From a virus, in the IMG/VR virus record IMGVR_UViG_3300042561_000503, positions 1-31,799 of that record: DNA of 31,799 bases. One strand, given 5' to 3'. The notes under the pieces were generated by a model, which made no database searches, had not been told where the DNA came from, and saw only the letters and a list, made by a program, of their open reading frames with translations. The translations under genes were made by a program, and so were the position numbers. Every line of letters begins with the position of its first letter. Within the stretch, counting starts at the first letter, position 1. Shown piece by piece: positions 16,714-24,832 of the stretch.

Positions 16714-17993
16714 AGGCTCCTGATCCTCAGTTCCGGTTCGGCGTCGATCACCAGCGCCGTGATTGCCCACACGAGAGCGTCAAGGCGGTCCGGCGATTTA
16801 TCGTAATCGGAGGTGAACTCCATCATCTGCAATTCTAGCGCGTTAAACGGAACCGTGTGTTTGACGCGCTTTTGCTCATAGAGCGCCGCGACTGGTTCAG
16901 CCCGCAGCACCTTACCCCGCGATGCCCTTACCGCGCTGTAGGCGATCTGAGGCCGTACCGTGCGGATCACGCGCTCTACCAGGTCGCCGCCGTTGTTCAC
17001 TTCAGCAATGATGCGATCGGCTCCGAATGAGTCGAAGGCGTTCACCGCCCTGTTTGCCCAGCCGTCAGGCGGTAGGCGGCAACTGAGATCAGCCAGCACG
17101 TACACCAGGCCATCGACGCCGACGCCAGCAACAATGATTCCGGTTTCGTCCGCATCCGCCCCGCTGGTGACTGCCGGGTCAATCGCCACCACAACACGCC
17201 GCAGGTCAGGCCGCGTAATACCGCACCGCGTGGCATCGATCATGGCCGATGTCCACAGCGCGCCTTCGGTATCCATCAGAATTTCGCCGTCAAGCTCCTG
17301 ACGGCCGATTCTGGTCCCTTCGTACCGTTTTACGATCTGGCTGAAGAATGACGGTGCGAGGTTGCGCCGATTCTCTTTGGTGGTGCCGCGTGATATCACC
17401 GCCGCTTCATTTGCCATCAGGTCAGTGAGCAGCTTGATAGGCCGTGGAGTGGTTGAGATCAGGCATCGCGGCTTCCCTTTGCGAAGGCCAAAGGACAGCA
17501 TGTCCCACGTATCCTGTACGTTCTTCCAAGCCGCCAGCTCATCGCACCAGGCCGCGTCAAAGTTGGGGCCGCGCAACCGATCCGGCTCCTCAGCAGAGTA
17601 GAGCCACGCGCGGGAGCCATCCTTCCAGATGAGCTTACCGTGGCTGGCCGCGTAGATAGGGCGATCATCAGGAGGATGCACGGCCATGATGCCGGATTCG
17701 CCCAAGACCATCGTTTCGCGCGCATCGGCCTTTGTCGGTGCCACCAGTGCAATACGCCTCGCTCCGTTGCGCCGTGCCCACCTGACGAACTCCGCGCCCG
17801 TGCGAGTCTTGCCCCAACCACGGCCCGCGAGTGCCAGCCAATACGTCCAATCGCCTGGTGGTGGCAGTTGGCCAGGTCTGGCGAACAACGTCCAATCGTA
17901 GGCAAGCTGCTGGATTTCCAGCGGTGACATTTCCGCCAGCGCGCGCCGTATGGCGTCTTTACTGCGATTCTTCGGAAGCGTCGTCAGATTCAT
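16710..17993 (-). CDS. terL: Terminase large subunit
   Basis: 427 aa from ATG 17993 (a TTG two codons upstream is possible). The ATPase domain shows Walker A GRGWGKT at about 57-63 and a Walker-B-like FDAAWCDE, with a probable coupling motif LISTTPRP. The nuclease domain has the acidic triad candidates in VVAIDPAV, IIAEVNNGG and SPDRLDALVWA, the RNase H-like order. It packages DNA through the portal, using ATP, and cuts the concatemer. It overlaps the small subunit by 35 nt and the portal by 4 nt. Confidence 0.96.
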   Translation of the reverse strand: MNLTTLPKNRSKDAIRRALAEMSPLEIQQLAYDWTLFARPGQLPPPGDWTYWLALAGRGWGKTRTGAEFVRWARRNGARRIALVAPTKADARETMVLGESGIMAVHPPDDRPIYAASHGKLIWKDGSRAWLYSAEEPDRLRGPNFDAAWCDELAAWKNVQDTWDMLSFGLRKGKPRCLISTTPRPIKLLTDLMANEAAVISRGTTKENRRNLAPSFFSQIVKRYEGTRIGRQELDGEILMDTEGALWTSAMIDATRCGITRPDLRRVVVAIDPAVTSGADADETGIIVAGVGVDGLVYVLADLSCRLPPDGWANRAVNAFDSFGADRIIAEVNNGGDLVERVIRTVRPQIAYSAVRASRGKVLRAEPVAALYEQKRVKHTVPFNALELQMMEFTSDYDKSPDRLDALVWAITALVIDAEPELRIRSL

Positions 17994-18396
17994 CAGCAAG
18001 TCGAGCGGCCAGCTTCTCCATCAGCGCTTCAGTGTCAGGCGGCGCGCTCATTTCGATCTTCTCCGGCGCATCGATGCCCAGCAGCTTTGCGCGGCGGCCC
18101 ATGATCGATAGCACCTGATTCGTTGACGATGGGTCAGCCTGTAGCGCCTTCTGCCAGTGCGCGGCCTGTAGTTCGTCCAAGCGTTGCATCTCGATATCGC
18201 GGACGTGTTCCGCCAGTTCCGCTGACGTTTCGCGCAACCGCTGAAGTTCACCGAGCACGAGGTTGTATGCGTGCGATGTAGCGATCCCGAGCGTCTGCCC
18301 GATGGCCACATATCCCATTCCGCTAATGCGCAGTTTCAGCGCATCCTGTGCATTCACAGCAGCTTTGACGGTTGAAGGCTTTGCTTTCTGACGCAT
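17959..18396 (-). CDS. terS: Terminase small subunit (probable)
   Basis: 145 aa. An N-terminal helix-turn-helix-like region (ALKLRISGMGYVAIGQTLGI, about 20-39) is followed by a long coiled coil (about 48-90, RLRETSAELAEHVRDIEMQRLDE) and an acidic C-terminal tail, the layout of phage small terminases that recognise DNA and oligomerise. Gene order and overlap with terL support it. The ribosome-binding site is weak (AGAAG), so it may depend on translation of the small gene upstream. Confidence 0.8.
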   Translation of the reverse strand: MRQKAKPSTVKAAVNAQDALKLRISGMGYVAIGQTLGIATSHAYNLVLGELQRLRETSAELAEHVRDIEMQRLDELQAAHWQKALQADPSSTNQVLSIMGRRAKLLGIDAPEKIEMSAPPDTEALMEKLAARLADESDDASEESQ

Positions 18397-21157: not shown

Positions 21158-22114
21158 ATGGAAGAGTTGAAAAAAGAATTGTCGGCGCTCTACAGCATCA
21201 AAGACTGGGCGCTGCACTACGAGGTTAACCGGACCCGCGAGATGAAGCTGATGCAATGGCTACCGCTGCCGATCAAGCTGGACGGCGAAGGGTACGCGGC
21301 GCTCATGGATCACGAGAACGGCGCGGCTCACTTTGGCGTGTTCGTGGCTGTGCTCGAAGTGGCGGCGCGATGCCCTCAAAGGGGGGTACTCGCTGGGGCA
21401 TCCGGGCCGTACACTGAAAAATCAATCGCCCGTTTGATACGTATCCCTGAATCTACAGTGATCGAAGCGTTGCTACGCCTTGCATCTGATGATATCGGGT
21501 GGATCACTTTCACTGGTGAACGGAATCAACAGGATACGCGCAAGGGTGCGGAAAAGGTGCGGGATTCATGCGGCGAAGGTGCGGTGAAGGTGCGGGCAGA
21601 CTGCGGGATGCATGCGCTACATAATAGGACATTACATAACAAGATAGAACAAAAGACTATTGATCAATCGGCTATCGCCGATCGATCGACACATGATTCT
21701 CGCTTTCAGGCTTTCTGGGCCCTGTACCCGAAACGCGTAGGGCGCGGCAAGTGCGAGAGCTGGGCGAAGACTAACGCGAAAACAGCGGCGGCATGGGAGC
21801 CGATCATGGCCGGGTTGCAGCGGGCGCTTGATGCGGGGCTGGCAAGGAAGGGCGACTTTATCCCGTATCCGGCAACGTGGCTGAATCAGAAGCGCTGGCT
21901 TGATGAACTTGGGGCGGTGGCGGCCCTCAATGGCCGCTCCTCGCTCCCAGAGTCGCGCTGCAAGTTGTGCCACGATACCGGGGTGGTATTTCTTCCCGGA
22001 GCGACATCAGGCGCGGATTTAGACAAATGCGCGCGGGCCTGTAGTTGTGAAATGGGCCACATCGAGGCAGAACATGGCCTAAAACGCATCGATAGCGGGA
22101 CGGTGGCGGAATGA
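21158..22114 (+). CDS. Phage replication initiator (lambda O-like organisation)
   Basis: 318 aa. The N-terminal about 120 residues resemble a winged-helix DNA-binding region (YTEKSIARLIRIPESTVIEALLRLASDDIGWI). Residues 129-150 are two 11-residue repeats (KGAEKVRDSCG, EGAVKVRADCG) produced by DNA iterons. A linker follows. Residues about 183-255 contain FWALYPKRVGRGK and YPATWLNQKRWLDE, a C-terminal module common in phage replication organisers. A final Cys cluster (CKLCHDTG, CARACSC) may bind zinc. AGAGGAGAG precedes the ATG. It should bind the internal origin and recruit the host helicase; no phage helicase or polymerase is present. Confidence 0.82.
   Translation: MEELKKELSALYSIKDWALHYEVNRTREMKLMQWLPLPIKLDGEGYAALMDHENGAAHFGVFVAVLEVAARCPQRGVLAGASGPYTEKSIARLIRIPESTVIEALLRLASDDIGWITFTGERNQQDTRKGAEKVRDSCGEGAVKVRADCGMHALHNRTLHNKIEQKTIDQSAIADRSTHDSRFQAFWALYPKRVGRGKCESWAKTNAKTAAAWEPIMAGLQRALDAGLARKGDFIPYPATWLNQKRWLDELGAVAALNGRSSLPESRCKLCHDTGVVFLPGATSGADLDKCARACSCEMGHIEAEHGLKRIDSGTVAE
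21545..21617 (+). repeat. Seven iterons at exact 11-bp spacing
   Basis: Units begin at 21545, 21556, 21567, 21578, 21589, 21600 and 21611. Four read GGTGCGG, two keep TGCGG, and the last keeps TGCG. The unit is 11 bp, about one DNA turn, so bound initiator would line one face. The period is not a multiple of three, so the repeat is imposed on DNA rather than on single codons. Confidence 0.85.
21545..21682 (+). other. Probable replication origin inside the initiator gene
   Basis: The iterons are followed directly by a strongly AT-rich stretch (21621-21660, 75% A+T by hand count) suited to strand opening, then a perfect inverted repeat ATCGGC/GCCGAT at 21667-21682. Initiator binding sites plus an unwinding element inside the initiator gene is the lambda ori plan. 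Confidence 0.78.
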
Positions 22115-22317: not shown

Positions 22318-22471
22318 CGACATCGCACGGTGTTGGCTGGAGTTGGAGCGCATTGCCAACGAAACAGACCCCGGCGAGGGCTGGGGGCTATGCGTCGGCT
22401 GGTGCGATTGGCAGAGTGAACTACTGGAGATCAGGAGAGAGATGAATGCAACAAGAGAGATTGATGTTTGA
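22292..22471 (+). CDS. Small Trp/Cys-containing protein
   Basis: 59 aa from the ATG at 22292. It overlaps the previous gene by 26 nt and the next by 26 nt in other frames. It reads as an acidic helical protein with CWLELERIANETDPGEGWGL and CVGWCDWQSELLEIR. Three Cys and four Trp are notable for its size. The overlaps make it less certain than its neighbours. Confidence 0.5.
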   Translation: MEDRSADVSDIARCWLELERIANETDPGEGWGLCVGWCDWQSELLEIRREMNATREIDV

Positions 22472-23621
22472 TGATTCCGGCGATCCCGTGAGTGAGGCCG
22501 AAAAAGCGTTCTCCTCACTGGCCAACCTTGAAGAGGCGGCAAAAATTGAGGCTATAAACCGGATCAAGATTGCCCTTCGAAAGTATTCGCCGTTTGGCGC
22601 TGAGCCTGTTGATTGCGTTATCTGGGTTAAGTCTGATTTGGTTGAGGCCAACGACTACAACCCCAACAGCGTTGCGCCTCCAGAAATGAAGCTCTTGGAG
22701 CGCTCGATTGAAGCTGATGGCTACACTCAGCCAATCGTGGCTTGGCCCCGCGAAGACAAGTTTGAAGTGATCGATGGGTTTCACCGAAACCGGATCGGCA
22801 AAGAATCTGCTGTAGTCCGCAAGCGGACTCTTGGGTATCTTCCCGTCACAGTCATTCGGCAGGATCGCGAGGAGCTTGGAGACCGCATGGCGTCAACCAT
22901 TCGCCACAACCGGGCGCGCGGAAAGCACAAGGTTGAATCCATGTCCGATATTGTGATTGAGTTGAAGCGCCGCAATTGGACGGATGAACGCATCGCGCGT
23001 GATCTCGGCATGGATCAAGACGAAATTCTCCGGTTGTGCCAGATTACCGGGCTGGCTGAGATGTTTAGCGACCGCGAGTTCTCCGCATCATGGGACGTGG
23101 AAGGCAACATTACGGAGGACGATTTCAAAGGGATCACCGACGATGTGAGCGAGTATGGCGAGGATGCAAAAGAATTCCGCACCGTCAACACAAGCGACGA
23201 AGAGCGAATTTTCCACACGTACGAAAAGTGGGAATGCTTCAAGGCTGGCTTTTACGCCACCACATTGAACGGAATGACCAAGGAAGAGGCAGAGCGAAAG
23301 TATGCTGACTTTTTGGCCGACGATCAAGTGTTTGGCGCGGCCTTGGAGCGCGTCACCAGCCAATGGAAGAATTCGTGTGAGCATTACCTCACCAATAAGG
23401 CCATGAATCGTATAGCGTGGCTGGGGCAGGCGTCTGTATGCTTGGCTCTCGGAATTCCATCATCGTTTCGCGGTGGGTTCAATTTGCTGCCGCCAGACAA
23501 GCAGGAAGCAGCCAATGCGCTCGCGCTGCGGTATCTCAATCGCTGGCTTGTTGCCAATGGCCTGAAGGAAGTGACGCTGGAAGAAGCATACTCCGGCGAC
23601 CGTCAATCGGTGATCTACTAA
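22446..23621 (+). CDS. IbrB-like ParB/Srx-fold protein
   Basis: 391 aa. Residues about 55-160 are a ParB/sulfiredoxin-like domain: ANDYNPNSVAPPEMKLLERS, IEADGYTQPIV, then the nucleotide-site motif EVIDGFHRNRIG at about 107-118 and STIRHNRARGKH. A helix-turn-helix-like region follows (about 165-205). The last 180 residues are a specific extension that ends in AYSGDRQSVIY. This layout and the coupled PAPS-reductase-like gene match the IbrB/IbrA pair, known in E. coli for regulating eib genes. Its biochemical role is not settled; ParB-fold relatives bind CTP or ATP. AGGAGAG precedes the start, and the stop overlaps the next start (TAATG). Confidence 0.8.
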   Translation: MQQERLMFDDSGDPVSEAEKAFSSLANLEEAAKIEAINRIKIALRKYSPFGAEPVDCVIWVKSDLVEANDYNPNSVAPPEMKLLERSIEADGYTQPIVAWPREDKFEVIDGFHRNRIGKESAVVRKRTLGYLPVTVIRQDREELGDRMASTIRHNRARGKHKVESMSDIVIELKRRNWTDERIARDLGMDQDEILRLCQITGLAEMFSDREFSASWDVEGNITEDDFKGITDDVSEYGEDAKEFRTVNTSDEERIFHTYEKWECFKAGFYATTLNGMTKEEAERKYADFLADDQVFGAALERVTSQWKNSCEHYLTNKAMNRIAWLGQASVCLALGIPSSFRGGFNLLPPDKQEAANALALRYLNRWLVANGLKEVTLEEAYSGDRQSVIY

Positions 23622-24832
23622 TGGCGATCAAATGCTTTCGAGATGTCAACGTGCTGGAAGCTGCACGCAAGCGGATATCGATTACGTTCGACACAGTAGA
23701 GCGCGTGTTCGTGGCGTTCTCTGGCGGCAAGGATTCATCAGTCATGCTTCACCTCGTCATGGATGAGGCGATCAAGCGCAATCAGCGCGTGGCCGTCATG
23801 TACATCGATTTTGAGGCGCAATATGCGGAGACCGTTGCGCACGTCGAAGAAATGTTCGAGATGTACAAGGACCACATCGACCCGCATTGGGTTTGCGTTC
23901 CGATGCTGCTACGCAACGCAGTCACGAACTACGAGCCACGCTGGTGCTGCTGGGATGAAACAAAGCGGCATCTATGGATTCGGGAGAAGCCTAAGGTCCA
24001 CAAGAGCATTGACGATTACCCGTTTGCCCTGCCAGAAATGGAGTTTGAGGAGTTCGTGGTCTTGTTTGCCAAGTGGTACGGAAAGGGGAAGCGAACGGCT
24101 GGATTCATCGGGATACGCGCTCAAGAATCGCTTCACCGATATTGCGCGGTGGCCACTTGGGAGAAAAAAGACCTGATGCTAGACGGCCATCGGTGGACCA
24201 CGAAGATCACCGATCAGGCGTACAACATCTACCCTATTTATGATTGGCTCACCACCGACATCTGGACCTATCACGCCAAGTACCCTTGGAAGCCACACAA
24301 CGCGATCTACGACAAAATGCAGATGGCCGGGGTTCCTCTGTCTCAGCAACGCCTTTGTCAACCATTTGGAGATGACCAACGCCGGGGGCTATGGCTCTAT
24401 CACATTCTTGAGCCTCAGACGTGGTTCAAGCTGGTGGTCCGGGTGAACGGAGCAAACTCAGGCGCTCTCTACGTCGAAGAGAACGGCAATATCAGCGGGT
24501 ACAACAAGATCACGAAGCCAGCGAACCACACATGGAAGAGCTTCTGCAATCTGCTACTCCAGACGATGCCGAAAAAGACGAGAGAGCATTACGTCTACCG
24601 CTTTAAGAAGTTCATCCATGGCTGGCATGATCGCGGGTACACTTCCATCCCCGAAGAGGCCCCGCCAGAACTTGAGGCAAAGTGCTGGGCACCTTCATGG
24701 CGTCGGATGTGCAAGGTGCTTCTTCGAAACGATTACTGGTGCAAGGGACTTGGCCAGACTCAACCAAAATCAGACGCTTACGGGCGATACAAAGCCATCA
24801 TGAAGGAGAAGAAAGCAGATGGACAAAGCTAA
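23621..24832 (+). CDS. IbrA-like PAPS-reductase / PP-loop protein (DUF3440)
   Basis: 403 aa from ATG 23621. FSGGKDSSVML has the PP-loop SGGKDS at about 34-39, which activates a substrate through ATP pyrophosphate chemistry. A Cys/Trp-rich strip (YEPRWCCWDETKRHLW) and IGIRAQESLHRY follow, as in PAPS-reductase relatives. The C-terminal half (NIYPIYDWLTTDIW, PLSQQRLCQPFGDDQRRGLW) is the DUF3440 region of IbrA. Such enzymes resemble DndC of phosphorothioation systems, but DndC partners are absent. With the ParB-like protein it may modify nucleic acid, nucleotides or sulfur compounds, or regulate transcription. It is larger than classical CysH. Confidence 0.85.
   Translation: MAIKCFRDVNVLEAARKRISITFDTVERVFVAFSGGKDSSVMLHLVMDEAIKRNQRVAVMYIDFEAQYAETVAHVEEMFEMYKDHIDPHWVCVPMLLRNAVTNYEPRWCCWDETKRHLWIREKPKVHKSIDDYPFALPEMEFEEFVVLFAKWYGKGKRTAGFIGIRAQESLHRYCAVATWEKKDLMLDGHRWTTKITDQAYNIYPIYDWLTTDIWTYHAKYPWKPHNAIYDKMQMAGVPLSQQRLCQPFGDDQRRGLWLYHILEPQTWFKLVVRVNGANSGALYVEENGNISGYNKITKPANHTWKSFCNLLLQTMPKKTREHYVYRFKKFIHGWHDRGYTSIPEEAPPELEAKCWAPSWRRMCKVLLRNDYWCKGLGQTQPKSDAYGRYKAIMKEKKADGQS

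Follow-up and report, generated by a model that had tools for sequence, protein, structure and literature searches.

Repeats within a phage initiator gene

The window, that is, the whole stretch of 31,799 nucleotides analysed here, is a 31.8 kb virus record in which head, tail and terminase genes occupy the minus strand to the left, and an early block lies on the plus strand at about 19-25 kb. The features of the locus are as follows.

21,158 to 22,114, plus strand: replication initiator gene (318 amino acids; PHROG 270 match), which hosts the putative origin
21,278 to 21,520, plus strand: N-terminal winged-helix-like DNA-binding domain (about amino acids 41-121), predicted with AlphaFold2 and VIA-align
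21,497 to 21,676, plus strand: disordered linker (amino acids 114-173; AlphaFold2 pLDDT below 50), encoded by the putative origin
21,545 to 21,616, plus strand: iteron array of seven TGCG(G) units with an exact 11-bp period (k-mer chain scan, shuffles, permutations)
21,617 to 21,666, plus strand: putative DNA unwinding element, 72% AT; AT richness 3' of the arrays is a family feature
21,662 to 21,687, no strand assigned: inverted repeat GATCAATCGGC-TATC-GCCGATCGATC, 10 of 11 positions paired
21,701 to 21,910, plus strand: conserved helical C-terminal domain FxxFWxxYPK...TWLNQKRWxD, common to hundreds of phage initiators
22,446 to 23,621: ParB-like ORF (PHROG 2159), downstream of the initiator gene

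In the 31.8 kb record, the neighbourhood of the initiator yielded no recognisable helicase or loader gene, and no DnaA-box-like site lies near the array. The cumulative GC skew changes direction twice, at about 19 kb and about 25.5 kb; because both turns coincide with changes of gene strand, the skew is uninformative on the start point. Among the other genes, the ParB-like ORF shares some 200 bp, read in a different frame, with a PAPS-reductase-like and DUF3440 ORF, the two together spanning 22,446-24,832, and a minus-strand ORF adjoining the terminase (17,959-18,396) matches PHROG 645, which carries the label RNase E.

The sequence-only reading had described seven TGCG(G) iterons in 11-bp steps without a phase slip. 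The k-mer scan confirmed them: TGCG cores start at 21,547, 21,558, 21,569, 21,580, 21,591, 21,602 and 21,613 (21,547 + 11k, k = 0 to 6), with TGCGG in six of the seven units, TGCGC in the last one, and a preceding GG in four of seven. The six bases between the cores have diverged, with the core kept. The array is the only such chain in the record, since no other 4-mer chain of at least five copies with a period of 5-40 bp was found in its 31.8 kb, and the second chain returned by the scan was the same TGCG array read one base later. There is no eighth unit in register upstream. The unit displays no dyad symmetry (dyad z -1.3), the array being made of direct repeats 11 bp apart. Its log-likelihood ratio is 28.9; codon-order shuffles did not exceed 15, and the best synonymous, protein-preserving permutation reached 21.5. 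With the amino acids and the phage codon usage fixed, about 2.6 cores are expected and seven are observed, and all seven occur in only about 2.5e-5 of the encodings, indicating that selection acted on the DNA. This earlier claim is thus borne out for this gene and, by the protein-preserving permutations described below, for the family. The 11-residue protein repeat that had been noted alongside is also present in the translation (GAEKVRDSCGE / GAVKVRADCGM). Conservation of the TGCG array is not traceable, because the sole close relative (L001) is identical.

Directly 3' of the array, the expected AT-rich stretch was found at 21,621-21,660. It is 75% AT, compared to 40% for the whole record, in which no 40-bp segment is richer in AT, and only 0.01% of the 40-bp windows are as AT-rich. 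The inverted repeat reported at 21,667-21,682 is indeed perfect (ATCGGC-TATC-GCCGAT), but its arms are only 6 bp long, and it is rare rather than unique: six such repeats occur in the record, and the version with 11-bp arms and one mismatch (21,662-21,687) is one of two.

The initiator matches PHROG 270, 'replication initiation protein' (E 3.1e-18), and PHROG 9327/9474 (E about 2e-15). No Pfam or NCBIfam model matched the protein, hence neither a RepA_N nor a lambda O-family domain. In the AlphaFold2 model, N-terminal helices span residues 43-50, 55-71, 87-94 and 98-110, with moderate confidence (pLDDT 55-87). VIA-align matched residues 45-121 of this model to AldR/Lrp-type and CRP winged helices with Z up to 7.4, and Foldseek returned no significant match for it; since Z values of about 7 link it to winged helices of transcription factors, only a common fold is shown. 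At the sequence level, the N-terminus forms a singleton cluster, without close relative, and shows no match to the profile of the HTH_36 cluster. The array-encoded residues fall inside the low-pLDDT stretch 114-173. The C-terminal domain (FWxxYPK...TWLNQKRW), present here as in PHROG 270-type initiators, is confidently modelled as helical (pLDDT 79.7, 54 sequences), with no Pfam model and no PDB fold match. The protein ends in a cysteine cluster, CKLCHDTG...KCARACSC (amino acids 267-301, 21,956-22,060), absent from the other initiators aligned with this one, which we take to be akin to the zinc motif of DnaC/IstB-type loaders.

Array spacing among related initiators

Relatives were collected through a TWLNQKRW-like motif in several scans, yielding 382 loci, and the test set comprised 162 initiators with less than 60% identity and at least 80 amino acids before the C-terminal domain. 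Genes were scanned for ungapped arrays of at least four copies with a period of 8-26 bp; for the null, the protein was kept, synonymous codons were permuted, and the whole gene was rescanned. Significant tandem arrays were detected in 69 of the 162 initiators (about 40%), over half of the set having no passing array. The commonest period was 11 bp, in 28 of 162 genes versus 3.3 expected at the basic cut, and in 18 genes versus 0.67 expected at a stricter one, an 8- to 27-fold excess over protein-preserving permutations. Periods of 10 and 21-23 bp were likewise in excess. Period-12 arrays were considered as DNA-level evidence and rejected, as they are mostly protein repeats (15 observed versus 9.6 expected). 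None of 276 neighbouring control genes of the loci carried an 11-bp array.

Across the family, the arrays sit in the initiator linker, with a median distance of 107 nt between the end of period-11 arrays and the C-terminal domain. In the 50 bp lying 3' of period-11 arrays the AT content is high, above the gene mean in 20 of 23 genes (p = 1e-5), with no AT enrichment in the 5' flanks. The iteron motifs are unrelated between phages (GAACGACACCG, AGTACA, ACGCGT, GGCCA, TGTATACC), and in distant relatives the spacing is kept while the motif changes. One homologue pair with 65% identity (L305/L307), for example, keeps 11 bp although the motifs of the two differ. Among homologue pairs with 40-85% identity and strong arrays, which are not independent of each other, 65 of 132 share the same period, versus a 27% background. 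Three further scans with other anchors provided a replication set of 55 initiators whose N-termini are less than 60% identical to those of the first set. There, 11-bp arrays were found in 6 genes versus 0.21 expected, and 10-bp arrays in 5 versus 0.44; the 3' AT enrichment was recovered (p = 0.003), and array-less genes show none at that place. Some arrays stand apart: one relative (L072) carries five identical 11-mers, and one subgroup (L397, L024, L266, L341) has 8-bp arrays, below one helix turn (e.g. GGGGAACA).

N-termini were then grouped by single-linkage sequence clusters. Members of the HTH_36 cluster also match PHROG lambda-O-like families, and show eight two-turn arrays (21-24 bp) and one one-turn array. 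By contrast, all other clusters together show 46 one-turn (10-12 bp) and four two-turn arrays (Fisher p = 2e-6, and again 2e-6 without period 12). Period 11 was found in seven clusters, this virus's own cluster being a singleton. In the replication set, HTH_36-like initiators have two two-turn and two one-turn arrays, versus 0 and 20 for the rest (p = 0.02). The rule is not strict, because some HTH_36 genes carry 9-, 15- or 16-bp arrays. Dyad symmetry did not cleanly distinguish one-turn from two-turn arrays (a weak trend, p = 0.014) and was discarded as a main argument. Some HTH_36-type initiators (L384, L513, L593) have dyad-bearing units of 15 bp (TTCCACTGTGGA), a length that corresponds to neither one turn nor two. 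That spacing follows the N-terminal class is what would be expected if the N-terminal domain binds the units, and no other indirect evidence speaks as strongly for the domain reading them.

Comparison with known origins

The layout recalls that of lambda. In lambda O / ori-lambda, phi80 gp15 and P22 gp18, the origin lies mid-way in the initiator gene, as proposed here, and encodes the linker; lambda-type origins further share with this virus an iteron array with AT-rich DNA to its 3' side, and an N-terminal DNA-binding domain. Lambda iterons are 19-bp imperfect inverted repeats with an AT-rich tract beside them (PMC7466680), and are bound by O dimers (PMC5043065). The distances between their annotated starts are 20, 24 and 23 bp, and our array scan returned for lambda a period of 23 with three iterons, weakly above the null, and for phi80 a period of 21, with sites 20-21 bp apart. 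Unlike these, the repeats of this virus are short, direct and without dyad, and their 11-bp period is half the lambda spacing; in addition, this initiator matched neither Phage_rep_O nor the PHROG O-like families. The locus had been called 'lambda-style': the term holds for the layout and fails for descent, given the lack of a lambda O-family match, the lack of a dyad in the unit and the halved spacing.

The one-turn period has a counterpart in a known origin. The lactococcal replisome organizers Rep2009 of Tuc2009 and ORF13 of TP901-1 are described as binding direct repeats in their own genes, which act as ori (PMC8965321). The rep gene of Lactococcus phage Tuc2009 contains four CAACCA at 2,439, 2,450, 2,461 and 2,472 of the retrieved sequence, in exact 11-bp steps, with an array score of 20.4, whereas permuted versions scored no more than 13.3 at period 11. 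By eye, the Tuc2009 Rep N-terminus resembles one of the one-turn clusters (cluster 3); it differs from this virus by its motifs, by a second, overlapping repeat (AGGATA) and by the absence of the TWLNQKRW domain. TP901-1 displayed at best a weak 15-bp pattern, not above permutations, similar to the 15-bp HTH_36 units. Because the relatives and Tuc2009 share the 11-bp spacing, one-turn direct-repeat iterons appear as a second, widespread layout for an origin type that is already known, and this virus as one case of that variant. Our literature search, in which subscription journals were sparsely covered, found no report of 11-bp iterons in phage initiator genes, and the variant seems not to have been described previously as a class.

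More distant systems share parts of this organisation. In SPP1, gp38 / oriL combines direct repeats and an AT-rich unwinding element within the initiator gene (PMC6316719). The N-terminal winged helix of the RepA_N initiator of pSK41 binds boxes in the rep gene, the linker being encoded by ori, and its C-terminal domain contacts a host replication protein; the N-terminal module is swappable, as in pPR9 (PMC5703833). However, pSK41 belongs to a plasmid family, has four Rep boxes and showed no homology in the searches made. The bind locus of pMV158 RepB is a precedent for stacking on one helix face, but RepB is an unrelated, rolling-circle nicking initiator whose site lies outside its gene.

The locus as a probable replication origin

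Taken as a whole, these data are best explained if the segment is a phage theta-replication origin located inside the initiator gene and bound by the N-terminal domain of its product, a reading drawn from sequence comparison to which we assign a probability of about 0.86. The placement of a putative origin within the gene is well supported by the array, the DNA-level selection, the AT-rich flank, the initiator family, the linker location and the one-turn pattern, and the corresponding proposal of the sequence-only reading gained support from the PHROG 270 match, the family-wide linker location and the AT-rich 3' flank.

The array might instead be an operator or a centromere-like site, serving gene control or partition, for example for the ParB-like protein, whose gene lies downstream of the initiator. 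Centromeres and operators typically have tandem direct repeats, and initiators commonly autoregulate. Yet in the relatives the array keeps to the initiator linker whatever the neighbouring genes, its period follows the N-terminal class of the initiator, and an AT-rich 3' flank accompanies it; moreover, operators usually lie upstream of a gene rather than mid-gene. We therefore consider this explanation improbable.

Two further explanations, which we regard as still more remote, would deprive the array of a role as DNA. The pattern could be a by-product of an 11-residue repeat needed in the linker, and such a repeat is present, the period-12 arrays of the family being themselves partly protein-level (15 versus 9.6 expected). 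Nevertheless, only 2.5e-5 of the synonymous encodings keep seven cores, the 11-bp excess in the family reaches 8- to 27-fold when the protein is preserved, and the linker is predicted to be disordered and differs between relatives. The array could also be a functionless leftover of recent slippage or tandem duplication, in agreement with the near-perfect copies seen in some relatives (L072). Here, however, the core has been retained amid diverged intervening bases, the record contains no second such array, and the AT flank, the linker location and the class-specific spacing recur across many lineages.

Under the origin reading, we propose that the N-terminal winged-helix domain binds the TGCGG units, probably with one subunit per unit, and that seven subunits would line up along the DNA on units spaced one helical turn apart, with each unit shifted by about 17 degrees relative to the last, given that one turn of B-DNA takes about 10.5 bp. 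The resulting filament or bend would strain the AT-rich stretch directly downstream, leading to its melting, and the C-terminal domain might then recruit or seat a helicase loader or a helicase. Binding, melting, the one-to-one stoichiometry, stacking on one face and the role of the C-terminal domain are what we infer from this arrangement. The suggestion that tight spacing may be a different way to build the complex gained support, one-turn spacing being family-wide and tied to the class of DNA-binding domain. More generally, and at even odds in our estimate, TWLNQKRW initiators may carry N-terminal winged-helix modules that can replace one another, each paired with linker iterons of its own, HTH_36/lambda-O-like modules acting as dimers over two turns and the others as monomers over one turn, the filament of the latter representing a second general way of loading an origin.

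The origin of most sequenced phages is unmapped. A rule placing it at a tandem array in the initiator linker, with an AT-rich 3' side and a spacing predicted by the N-terminus, would make origins readable from sequence. Moreover, the family contains dozens of natural initiator-iteron pairs in which unrelated motifs occur on a shared scaffold; such pairs could be used to test how origin opening depends on spacing and stoichiometry, a question beyond the reach of lambda alone.

Isolated phages agree with the class-spacing rule only in part. Arrays of 22 bp were found in two phages that match the HTH_36 profile, TaylorSipht and one of P. aeruginosa; Pontimonas phage phiPsal1 has a 15-bp array, and 11-bp arrays were found in Gordonia phage CheeseTouch and in PfAn1. 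In several isolated phages, a gene for a DnaC-like loader or a DnaB-type helicase adjoins the initiator or lies near it. The P. syringae phages psageB2, MR13 and phiPSA1 (L385, L386, L394) have near-identical initiator C-terminal domains, whereas their three N-termini are unrelated and their linker repeats differ, and thus represent natural module swaps. Finally, several Pseudomonas phage records (L394, L396, L386) give members of the initiator family the label 'pyocin large subunit' or 'putative antirepressor protein'.
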